Below the pieces are notes generated by a model, which was not told the origin of the DNA, did no database searches, and worked only from the letters and a program-made list of their open reading frames with translations. This document shows, one piece after another, positions 39,849 through 42,051 of a stretch of DNA of 64,000 nt. Each line of letters begins with the position of its first letter. The first letter of the stretch is position 1. Source of the stretch: Granulicoccus phenolivorans DSM 17626 = NBRC 107789 = JCM 15570 (lineage in GTDB: Bacteria > Actinomycetota > Actinomycetes > Propionibacteriales > Propionibacteriaceae); assembly GCF_000423085.1 (NCBI RefSeq), contig NZ_AUHH01000009.1, positions 1-64,000 on the forward strand. Reading direction: 5' to 3'. The position numbers and the translations under genes were made by a program.

Positions 39849-39894
39849 GAAAAATGCCGCAGGGGCCCGCGATGAACATCGCGAGCCCCTGCGG
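39849..39894 (-). terminator. Rho-independent terminator of the LAKTG protein gene
   Basis: Minus-strand CCGCAGGGGCTCGCGATG/CATCGCGGGCCCCTGCGG stem (39857-39894) followed by CATTTTT. It sits 23 bp after the stop of the gene at 39917. Confidence 0.9.
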
Positions 39895-39916: not shown

Positions 39917-40642
39917 TCAGGCGCCGGTCTTGGCGAGCTTGCCGCCGGAGGTGGCCTTCTTGTCGGCACCCTTCTGGTCGGTCGCCTTGCTGGTCGACTT
40001 GGTCGCGGTCGGCTTGCTGCTCGACTTGGTCGCGGTCGGCTTGGTGGTGGCCGACTTGGTCGCGGTCGGCGAGGTGGTCGGGTCGATACCGATGGTGTAG
40101 CCACCCTGCTCGCCCACGAAAGCGAAGCCGGCGCTGTCGGCGGACAGCTTCACGTCCGACTTGAAGCGGCCCTGCTTGTTGTAGGTGCAGTTGATGGTGA
40201 AGGAGCCGGTCTCCTTGTCGGAGAAGGTGATCTTGCCACCGTTCACGGTGCCGTTGGTCGAGGTGGCCGAGCAGGTGGCGGTGCCGCCGGCCGGGCTGGT
40301 CTCGAAGGTGACGCTGAAGTTGGAGGCCTTGGCCTTGAGGATGCCCTCCTTGCCGTCCAAGGTGGCAAGGGTGACGCTCTTGGCCTCGCCCTGGATCGTG
40401 TACTTGTCACCCGGGCGGACCGAGGACGGGGTGATGTCGAACTTGGTCCACACCACGGCGTCGCGCTGGGCCGACGGGGCGGCGGCGCCGGGGGTGGTGG
40501 CGTGCGGGGTGACCGTCTTGGTGCTGGCCTTCGAGTCCGCGGCAGGGGTCGGGGTCGGGGTGGCGGCCAGGGCGGTACCGGCACCGGCGGCGGTGAGGGC
40601 AACGCCCAAAGCCGCGGTGATGGCCAGGCGAGAAGCTCGCAT
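39917..40642 (-). CDS. Secreted protein with C-terminal LAKTG motif (paralogue 1)
   Basis: A 241-residue protein with a signal peptide (ITAALGVALTAAGAGTALA, cleavage after ALA-A). A Ser/Thr/Pro linker precedes an Ig-like or beta-sandwich domain (about 60-185) with a likely disulfide between TATCSAT and TINCTY. A Lys/Ser/Thr-rich repetitive stretch (TKPTATKSSSKPTATKS) follows, and the protein ends GGKLAKTGA. LAxTG is a class E sortase signal, but here the protein stops one residue later with no hydrophobic anchor. I chose ATG 40642, seven bases after AAGGA, matching the MR starts of its paralogues. It has its own promoter at 40732-40760. Confidence 0.85.
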   Translation of the reverse strand: MRASRLAITAALGVALTAAGAGTALAATPTPTPAADSKASTKTVTPHATTPGAAAPSAQRDAVVWTKFDITPSSVRPGDKYTIQGEAKSVTLATLDGKEGILKAKASNFSVTFETSPAGGTATCSATSTNGTVNGGKITFSDKETGSFTINCTYNKQGRFKSDVKLSADSAGFAFVGEQGGYTIGIDPTTSPTATKSATTKPTATKSSSKPTATKSTSKATDQKGADKKATSGGKLAKTGA

Positions 40643-40731
40643 TGTCATTCCTTCTTTCGTCTTCGGGGGTGGCCCTGGCTGGGGTACCGATGGCTACCGG
40701 CTGCCGTCAGGTCAAGGTCCAACTGCGCCGG

Positions 40732-40760
40732 ACTCTATTTTGATCTGCGAAGCAGCGCAA
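40732..40760 (-). promoter_or_regulatory. Promoter of LAKTG paralogue 1
   Basis: On the minus strand: TTGCGC (40755-40760), 17 bp, TAGAGT (40732-40737), giving a leader of about 85 nt. The spacer and flanks align with the promoter of paralogue 3 at 42109-42137 (CTATTT, GCGAAGCAGCGCAAAC against GCAAAGAAGTGCAAAC on the plus strand). Confidence 0.75.
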
Positions 40761-40850
40761 ACCTGAAACGGGGATTACGCAACTGAGGATTTGCTCATTC
40801 AATCTCAGGGGATTCTGACCCCAAAGTCCGGTTCGGCACCCCCATGCGCC

Positions 40851-41441
40851 TCAACTGCCGGTCTTGGCGAGCTTGCCGCCGGGGATGGAGCGCTTGCCCA
40901 GGAAGGTCAGCACCGCGTCGTTCGTCGTCGCGGTACGCAACGACCAGCCGGTCGATTCGCCGACGGTCGAGTGCTCGCTGTGGGCAGCCAACGTCAGATA
41001 GTGGACGGCTTGCACGCGCTCGGTGTTCATCCGGCAGGTGACGGTGAAGTCGGCGGATTCCTTCTGGATGAACCTGATGTGGGCCCCGGTCACCTCGCCG
41101 TCGGGCGACTGTGCGGTGCAGGTGACGTCACGCTGCTCGGCGGAGCGGAACCAGATCCTGAACTCCGACGCCTTGGGGGTGGCCTGGACGACCTGGCGGT
41201 TGCGTACGACTGCGGACGCGCTCTTCGCGGTGCCGGTGATCGTGAAGGTGTCGCCCTTGCCAAGGAGCGTGCCAGGCCCCTTGTCCGGCACGATGTCGAG
41301 GTTGTCCCAGTAGATGACATTCCTGGGCCGGTCCGCGGAGGCGCTGCCGGTCTCCGGGGTGACGGCCAGGGCTGTGCCGAGGCCGGTGGCAGTGAGGGTG
41401 AGGCCGAGCGCGGCGATCAGGGCGGGGCGGGCGATGCGCAT
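40851..41441 (-). CDS. Secreted protein with C-terminal LAKTG motif (paralogue 2)
   Basis: A 196-residue protein: signal peptide ALIAALGLTLTATGLGTALA, a beta-rich domain with VIYWDNLDIVPDKGPGT, TITGTAKSAS, and a Cys pair in DVTCTAQSPDGE and FTVTCRM. The tail is GGKLAKTGS and then stop. It lacks the Lys/Thr repeat linker of paralogue 1. ATG with GAGAGGAATCCACCC upstream. It follows paralogue 3 by 28 bp and is presumably co-transcribed. Function unknown; exported. Confidence 0.85.
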   Translation of the reverse strand: MRIARPALIAALGLTLTATGLGTALAVTPETGSASADRPRNVIYWDNLDIVPDKGPGTLLGKGDTFTITGTAKSASAVVRNRQVVQATPKASEFRIWFRSAEQRDVTCTAQSPDGEVTGAHIRFIQKESADFTVTCRMNTERVQAVHYLTLAAHSEHSTVGESTGWSLRTATTNDAVLTFLGKRSIPGGKLAKTGS

Positions 41442-41469
41442 GGGTGGATTCCTCTCCGGGTTCGGTGGG

Positions 41470-42051
41470 TCACAGGCCGGTCTTGGCGAGCTTGCCGCCG
41501 GAGCCGGCGCGCCGACCTTCGACGATCAGGGTGGTCCGGTCCTTCCCCACCGTGATGATCCGGTAGCCCGCGTCCTGGCCGATGAACGTGTGACTGCTGT
41601 GGCTGCTCAGGCTCAGTCCCTGGACGATCCGGGGCGCCCGGGTGAGGGTGCAGTGCACCGTGAAGCTGCCCGACTCCTTGCCGGTGAACGTGATCGTGCC
41701 CCCCTTCGCCTCGCCGTCGGGGGACTGGGCGGTGCAGTCCATCTCCGGGTTCGAGCTGCTGTGGAAGGAGAGGGTGAAGTTGGACGCCTTCGGGGTCGGG
41801 TCCACCGGCCGGCGGTCCTTGACCTTGGCGGTGGCACTCTTCGCCGTTCCGGTGACAGTGAAGGAGTCGCCCACCCAGAGTTGCGTACCGGGGCCCTTGT
41901 CGGGCTTGACGTCGAACTCCTCCCAGTAGAGGACGTCGATCGGCTCGGCACTGTTCGCGAGGACCGGGGTGACGGCCAGGGCGGTGCCGGTACCGGCAGC
42001 AGCGAAGGCGAGGCTTGCGATTGCAATCATGGCGGGTCGGATGGGGCGCAT
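41470..42051 (-). CDS. Secreted protein with C-terminal LAKTG motif (paralogue 3)
   Basis: A 193-residue protein closely related to paralogue 2 (VLYWEEFDVKPDKGPGT, TVTGTAKSATAKVKDR, CTAQSPDGEAKGGTITF, FTVHCTL). It has signal peptide IAIASLAFAAAGTGTALA and ends GGKLAKTGL. The DNA for the tail (CCGGTCTTGGCGAGCTTGCC on the plus strand) is identical in all three genes. ATG 42051 with GAGAGGAA six bases upstream is preferred over 42099. First gene of a two-gene operon with paralogue 2. Confidence 0.85.
   Translation of the reverse strand: MRPIRPAMIAIASLAFAAAGTGTALAVTPVLANSAEPIDVLYWEEFDVKPDKGPGTQLWVGDSFTVTGTAKSATAKVKDRRPVDPTPKASNFTLSFHSSSNPEMDCTAQSPDGEAKGGTITFTGKESGSFTVHCTLTRAPRIVQGLSLSSHSSHTFIGQDAGYRIITVGKDRTTLIVEGRRAGSGGKLAKTGL

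Follow-up and report, generated by a model that had tools for sequence, protein, structure and literature searches.

Sortase substrates are recognised by a sorting motif followed by a membrane helix and a basic tail, the helix being thought to hold the substrate at the enzyme, and the PEP-CTERM and GlyGly-CTERM signals likewise include a membrane helix. In keeping with this scheme, the published criteria for sortase substrates demand both a helix and basic residues (PMC13251363), and CD3392 of C. difficile was reported to need its hydrophobic region and charged tail in order to associate with the membrane and so be sorted (PMC5569036). Sorting can also proceed without a helix, as is known for one substrate: AbpA of oral streptococci ends in LPKTS-AVK and lacks a hydrophobic domain, yet the neighbouring SrtB anchors it; its short C-terminal tails suffice when fused to GFP, and part of the AbpA is released (PMC4974636). 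Soluble substrates are also accepted in other settings. SrtE1 cuts an LAETG peptide (PMC5148588), a class E sortase acts in vitro on YNLPETGA and on ubiquitin ending in LPNTGG (PMC9773336), and an LPETG-amide peptide with no anchor enters the S. aureus wall in an SrtA-dependent manner (PMC3929722).

The locus described here lies within a stretch of 64,000 nucleotides of Granulicoccus phenolivorans DNA (the window), in which the first-pass annotation had noticed three tandem secreted paralogues ending in GGKLAKTG, one further residue (A, S or L) and a stop. Both the ORF coordinates and the tails were verified, and the features of the locus are as follows.

39917-40648, minus strand: ORF1, secreted protein of 243 aa, with signal peptide, beta domain with two conserved Cys, T/K/S-rich linker and the end GGKLAKTGA
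40851-41441, minus strand: ORF2, secreted paralogue of 196 aa with the end GGKLAKTGS, from reading of the sequence
41470-42051, minus strand: ORF3, secreted paralogue of 193 aa from its ATG with the end GGKLAKTGL, from reading of the sequence
39920-39946, minus strand: C-terminal tag of ORF1, GGKLAKTG-A, with the stop at 39917-39919
40854-40880, minus strand: C-terminal tag of ORF2, GGKLAKTG-S, with the stop at 40851-40853
41473-41499, minus strand: C-terminal tag of ORF3, GGKLAKTG-L, with the stop at 41470-41472
40565-40648, minus strand: predicted signal peptide of ORF1, 28 aa ending in ALA, from sequence and a simple hydropathy check
41364-41441, minus strand: predicted signal peptide of ORF2, 26 aa ending in ALA, from sequence and a simple hydropathy check
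41974-42051, minus strand: predicted signal peptide of ORF3, 26 aa ending in ALA, from sequence and a simple hydropathy check
39857-39894, minus strand: intrinsic terminator 3' of ORF1, with a stem of 17 pairs, a loop of 4 and a T-run
39979-40070, minus strand: 27-bp repeats coding for the T/K/S-rich, putative linker of ORF1

Judged by hydropathy only, all three ORFs have a predicted Sec-type signal peptide with a positive N-terminus, a hydrophobic core and ALA at the cut, and they have in common a middle domain carrying two invariant Cys residues, to which ORF1 adds the repeat-coded T/K/S-rich linker; ORF2 and ORF3 are 49% identical. The common domain has no Pfam or NCBIfam match above cut-off and no convincing solved structural relative. 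The AlphaFold2 model is all-beta with a mean pLDDT of 64 and finds no structural match at E<=0.001, the best being a fibrillar-adhesin domain (TM 0.31/0.44), and it was therefore set aside in the interpretation.

The stop codon directly after each tag is TGA, and the 3' DNA up to the final codon (CCGGCGGCAAGCTCGCCAAGACCGGC) is identical in the three ORFs over 26 bp, so that the identity pointed out earlier is real and its length slightly above the approximately 23 bp then given. Downstream of the stops, the terminator after ORF1 and a short gap, of 28 bp, between the ORF3 stop and ORF2 were both found as described. A helix with a basic tail was sought by translation and hydropathy in three frames over 180 bp past each stop, and none was present; in fact, the sole strongly hydrophobic stretch 3' of ORF3 is the signal peptide of ORF2 itself. 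No frameshift therefore conceals an anchor after any of the three stops, in agreement with the first-pass annotation, and a hidden frameshifted anchor is ruled out.

Compared with a canonical LPxTG or LAxTG signal, the pentapeptide is present (LAKTG or LARTG in all seven tagged proteins of this genome), but the transmembrane segment and the basic C-terminal tail are absent. The LAxTG core, the Sec signal peptide and the presence of a class E sortase in the genome recall the class E signals of the Streptomyces chaplins ChpA-C (PMC5148588) and of CwpA/CwpB of Actinoplanes (PMC13251363). AbpA, whose anchoring by a sortase was demonstrated experimentally, is similar: it too is secreted, has its motif at the very C-terminal end with only a few residues behind it, and lacks a hydrophobic helix. 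In contrast to the single LPKTS-AVK substrate and the adjacent, dedicated sortase B of the AbpA system, the motif here is LAxTG, the substrates number in the dozens, no sortase is adjacent, and mostly one residue trails the motif instead of AVK (PMC4974636). The man-made tags YNLPETGA and Ub-LPNTGG (PMC9773336) and LPETG-amide (PMC3929722) are also soluble, with at most one residue or an amide after the motif, whereas here the tag is borne by native proteins and has apparently evolved. With PEP-CTERM and GlyGly-CTERM (PMC1569441, PMC3237569) the resemblance is one of organisation, a single short C-terminal signal on many unrelated proteins with a matched processing enzyme, but the minimal tag lacks their membrane helix.

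Within the 4.1-Mb genome the pattern GGxLAxTGx followed by a stop has exactly seven matches, each of which ends a long secreted ORF. The pattern YTNGCNNNNACNGGNNNNTRR has twelve, of which seven fall at the end of a long secreted ORF, and the reversed control pattern has four; when the stop is not required, LAxTG has 326 sites. The tagged ends are far beyond chance. Besides the three in the window there are four elsewhere, and all seven conform to GGKLA[KR]TGx. The protein at C13:73354 has the domain of the window paralogues behind an unrelated N-terminal part, that at C13:73535, on the opposite strand, is an unrelated protein, that at C4:6520 is an M15 peptidase ending in GGKLARTGH, and that at C39:19287 is a GsmA-like glucosaminidase. 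Pairwise comparison of the tag codons of a window copy with those of the other four loci gives 42 synonymous and 6 non-synonymous differences, the latter all K/R. Because the codons have diverged synonymously with the residues kept, and because the carriers are unrelated, the tag is not the gene-conversion relic that had been suggested earlier as one possibility; its residues are, by this codon comparison, under selection. No convincing full-length sorting signal was found within the approximately 260 kb of this genome that were examined. This genome also has a convergent pair of tagged genes, placed end to end (L039:1765-3372, plus strand, and L039:3539-4855, minus strand), and in one of them the domain of the window paralogues is fused to an N-terminal domain that also occurs in tagged proteins of a second genus, g15 (L193, L212).

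In that genus, which belongs to the same family, GGLAxTG plus one residue ends 36 proteins in four genomes (14 in G014, 13 in G056, 6 in G119 and 3 in G038), and no tagged protein was found in the fifth, less complete genome (G133). In all, 43 proteins from many families carry the tag, in five genomes and two genera, a recurrence that supports the earlier suggestion of a minimal C-terminal tag. Elsewhere in the family, 10 of 194 genomes have a single match each, and in a sample of 395 genomes of the class no genome exceeds two matches for the G form; the tag is specific to the two genera, with background elsewhere in family and class. A proteome search for ends of the type KLAKTGx had been proposed; the K form (GGKLA..) is borne by the four further proteins of this genome and had no actinobacterial match among 84,980 species genomes, a collection from which the present genome is perhaps absent. 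A truncation confined to this strain is ruled out by the occurrence of the tag in a second genus.

The residue before the Leu is K in 7 of 7 copies here and G in 36 of 36 copies in g15, several of the carriers being homologous between the genera, and such a coordinated difference at many loci is expected if one trans-acting factor reads all of them. Tail length is sharply confined to one residue for most of the g15 sites with up to five trailing residues: none at +0, 36 at +1, none at +2, four at +3, two at +4 and one at +5. The last residue of the tail varies freely (V in 17, A in 4, R in 3, S in 3, and others), and upstream of the GG the g15 tags have a loose K/P-E/D-S/H-T/S context in common. 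The tails of +3 to +5 residues, which have no helix, end seven proteins (L162, L165, L169, L187, L190, L195 and L202), a 5'-nucleotidase, a phospholipase C and a PhoD phosphatase among them. Small secreted paralogues with the tag also lie side by side in this genus, in groups of two or three, and belong to a family other than that of the window trio (L214:987-3627, minus strand, in G014; L218, at G056:C7:72000-80000; L219, at G119:C1:314500-322000).

Clustering of the 50 short-tailed proteins (43 with one trailing residue and seven with three to five) gives 22 sequence groups, and for nearly all 50 a simple hydropathy check indicates a signal peptide, a few ORFs being clipped at the ends of the fetched stretches. 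Pfam assigns Glucosaminidase, Peptidase_M15_4, Peptidase_M23 and PhoX domains to proteins with the +1 tail, and Big_8, 5_nucleotid_C, phospholipase C and PhoD to those with +3 or +4. Attachment to the wall would make sense for peptidoglycan enzymes and surface hydrolases. Some of their homologues carry a textbook sorting signal at the same place. The M15 peptidase of G056 ends in GGLADTGGPDDALPLLLGGIGLIGAGVWVIRRGWMGKR, that is, GGLADTG followed by a hydrophobic helix and a basic tail; its homologue in G014, 60% identical to it, ends in GGLASTGV, and the M15 peptidase of the present genome (GGKLARTGH) is 49% identical to it. The glucosaminidase homologues have the minimal tag here and in the four g15 genomes (GGLARTGC, GGLAKTGN, GGLASTGV and GGLASTGA) and LPRTGG with a helix and a basic tail in g23, and a G056 amidase has ESSGGLASTG and then a helix. 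The linkers diverge between homologues and the tags are invariant. By these comparisons the minimal tag and a full sorting signal can stand in for each other on homologous proteins, and this exchange, on proteins of like kind, is the strongest indirect argument that the two do the same job. The first-pass annotation would have taken full signals on homologues elsewhere, with this strain alone lacking them, as a sign of local truncation; such homologues do exist, as the M15 peptidase of G056 and the glucosaminidase of g23 illustrate, but the anchorless form is common to two genera.

Two sortases are encoded in this genome, a class E enzyme at C21 and a class F-like enzyme at C5; there is none in the window, near the cluster. 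The presence of a class E sortase had been put forward as a check, and the enzyme is intact: it matches NF033747 with 208 bits against a cut-off of 160, and its alignment has the catalytic His, Cys and Arg (AGHRVTHG, TLTTCQ, DRS) and the Tyr of the beta3/beta4 loop (GWYESS) in place. The class F-like protein is above cut-off for PF04203, and its best NCBIfam match, NF033748, is at 64 bits, under the cut-off of 166. Class E is also intact in G014 and G056. In G119 and G038, by contrast with the retained tags, the class E homologues read AGYRTTHG and TLTTSQ, a His to Tyr and a Cys to Ser change, and the homologous tagged proteins of both species keep the tag regardless. The two loci are the following.

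L286:3694-4632, plus strand: full-length class E homologue without the catalytic His and Cys, in G119
L279:1589-2533, plus strand: full-length class E homologue without the catalytic His and Cys, in G038

The motif does fit class E, as had been noted at the outset, but class E is not established as the reader, being catalytically dead in two tagged species. Since the tags are kept there, a single reader for all five genomes would be the class F-like protein, or else the reader has changed; of the sortases found, a class F-like orthologue alone is intact, with its His, Cys and Arg, in each of the five tagged genomes, and G012, which has no tags, encodes a class F relative as well. Full-length class E homologues lacking the catalytic His and/or Cys also occur at L246, L247 and L234; several genera of the family have such proteins. 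By their sequences they are possible pseudo-sortases, and a literature search on catalytically dead sortases returned nothing relevant.

Taken together, the comparisons suggest that GGKLA(K/R)TG-x, or GGLAxTG-x in g15, is probably a minimal sortase substrate, soluble and complete in itself, which serves as a natural 'sortag' in place of the full signal. A tagged protein would be exported by the Sec route with a cleavable signal peptide and, since no C-terminal helix is encoded, would not be retained in the membrane by one. A membrane-bound, wall-facing sortase might then grip the exposed pentapeptide at the flexible end of the protein during its exit, cut the T/G bond, free the dipeptide G-x and join the Thr to a peptidoglycan precursor. 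By sortase chemistry the enzyme would need its Gly in an amide linkage, and the +1 residue is probably kept for no further purpose than to provide a peptide bond in place of a free carboxylate; the class E substrates used in vitro, LPETG-A and LPNTG-G, are built alike. Loss of the anchor probably lowers efficiency, and a fraction of each protein may reach the medium, as with AbpA. The helix requirement reported for CD3392 (PMC5569036) counts against sorting without a helix.

As to the enzyme, a covalent transpeptidase of class E or F is favoured over non-covalent binding. That the reader is class F specifically, with class E redundant or devoted to other substrates and free to decay in G119 and G038, is a tentative reading that seems somewhat unlikely. 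The class F-like protein is the sole intact sortase in 5 of 5 tagged genomes, and the tag on homologous proteins has outlived the His to Tyr and Cys to Ser changes; however, Ala at the second motif position is a hallmark of class E substrates (PMC5148588), most tags are found in the three genomes with intact class E (14, 13 and 7 versus 6 and 3), and the class F relative is not confined to tagged genomes. It is quite unlikely that the tag is instead held non-covalently by a sortase-fold protein, with the dead class E of G119 and G038, and an intact SrtE in other genomes, serving as a membrane receptor or assembly factor. The dead homologues are full-length, retain the Tyr of the loop proposed to read the Ala (PMC5148588) and have similar counterparts in other genera, but three genera with such counterparts (g17, g28 and g4) are at background for the tag, class E is intact in the present genome, and an exact +1 residue fits catalysis better. 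A broader proposal, in which soluble, anchorless substrates have taken over much of the sortase-anchored surface proteome of the whole clade, dead class E proteins may bind the tag in some members, and sorting is by class F or by non-covalent hold of a pseudo-sortase, is unlikely.

Two further explanations dispense with a sortase altogether. The tag could be a C-terminal signal for another process, such as processing by a C-terminal protease, passage through an export route or direct binding of the peptide to the wall, and resemble a sortase motif only outwardly; the sortase role is a putative one, and some of the tagged enzymes could bind the wall unaided. Systems that read the C-terminal residue differ, however, from a tag with an invariant L-A-x-T-G core and a free last residue, and homologues carry a real sorting signal in its place, which makes this explanation very unlikely. 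The least probable account, and a far-fetched one, is that the tag is a functionless remnant of full signals truncated by stops, the motif having been passed on by duplication or gene conversion. Truncation is plausible as an origin in view of the longer signals with the same GGLA[SD]TG core in G056 (L160, L164), and the window trio has 26 identical bp in common, but dozens of genes truncated independently at precisely the first residue after the motif, and never at +0 or +2, are not drift, and neither the synonymous divergence with conserved residues nor the invariance of the tags beside diverging linkers is in keeping with a loss of function.

If the tag is indeed a soluble sortase substrate, the helix would be dispensable in nature and would have been dropped by a clade on dozens of substrates. 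Because the published criteria demand a helix and basic residues, every protein with the minimal tag is missed by them, and predictions of surface proteomes by the standard criteria would overlook substrates. The short natural tags and their matching class E or F sortases would be of use for protein ligation and surface display, and the tag makes it possible to test what anchoring really gains from a sorting signal that retains its protein. New relative to AbpA are the many substrates, the lack of a neighbouring sortase and the mostly exact single trailing residue; no report of an anchorless sorting signal with many substrates was found in a literature search, most subscription papers lying outside its reach. 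Similar ends are found in a distant group: SpaA-repeat surface proteins of Clostridia end in GGKLPKTGY and then a stop, one residue past LPxTG and with no helix, in five copies on contigs of three genomes of uncultured Eubacteriaceae/Clostridia (L085:3177-8000, minus strand; L083, L090, L071 and L079), apparently an independent occurrence in Firmicutes.
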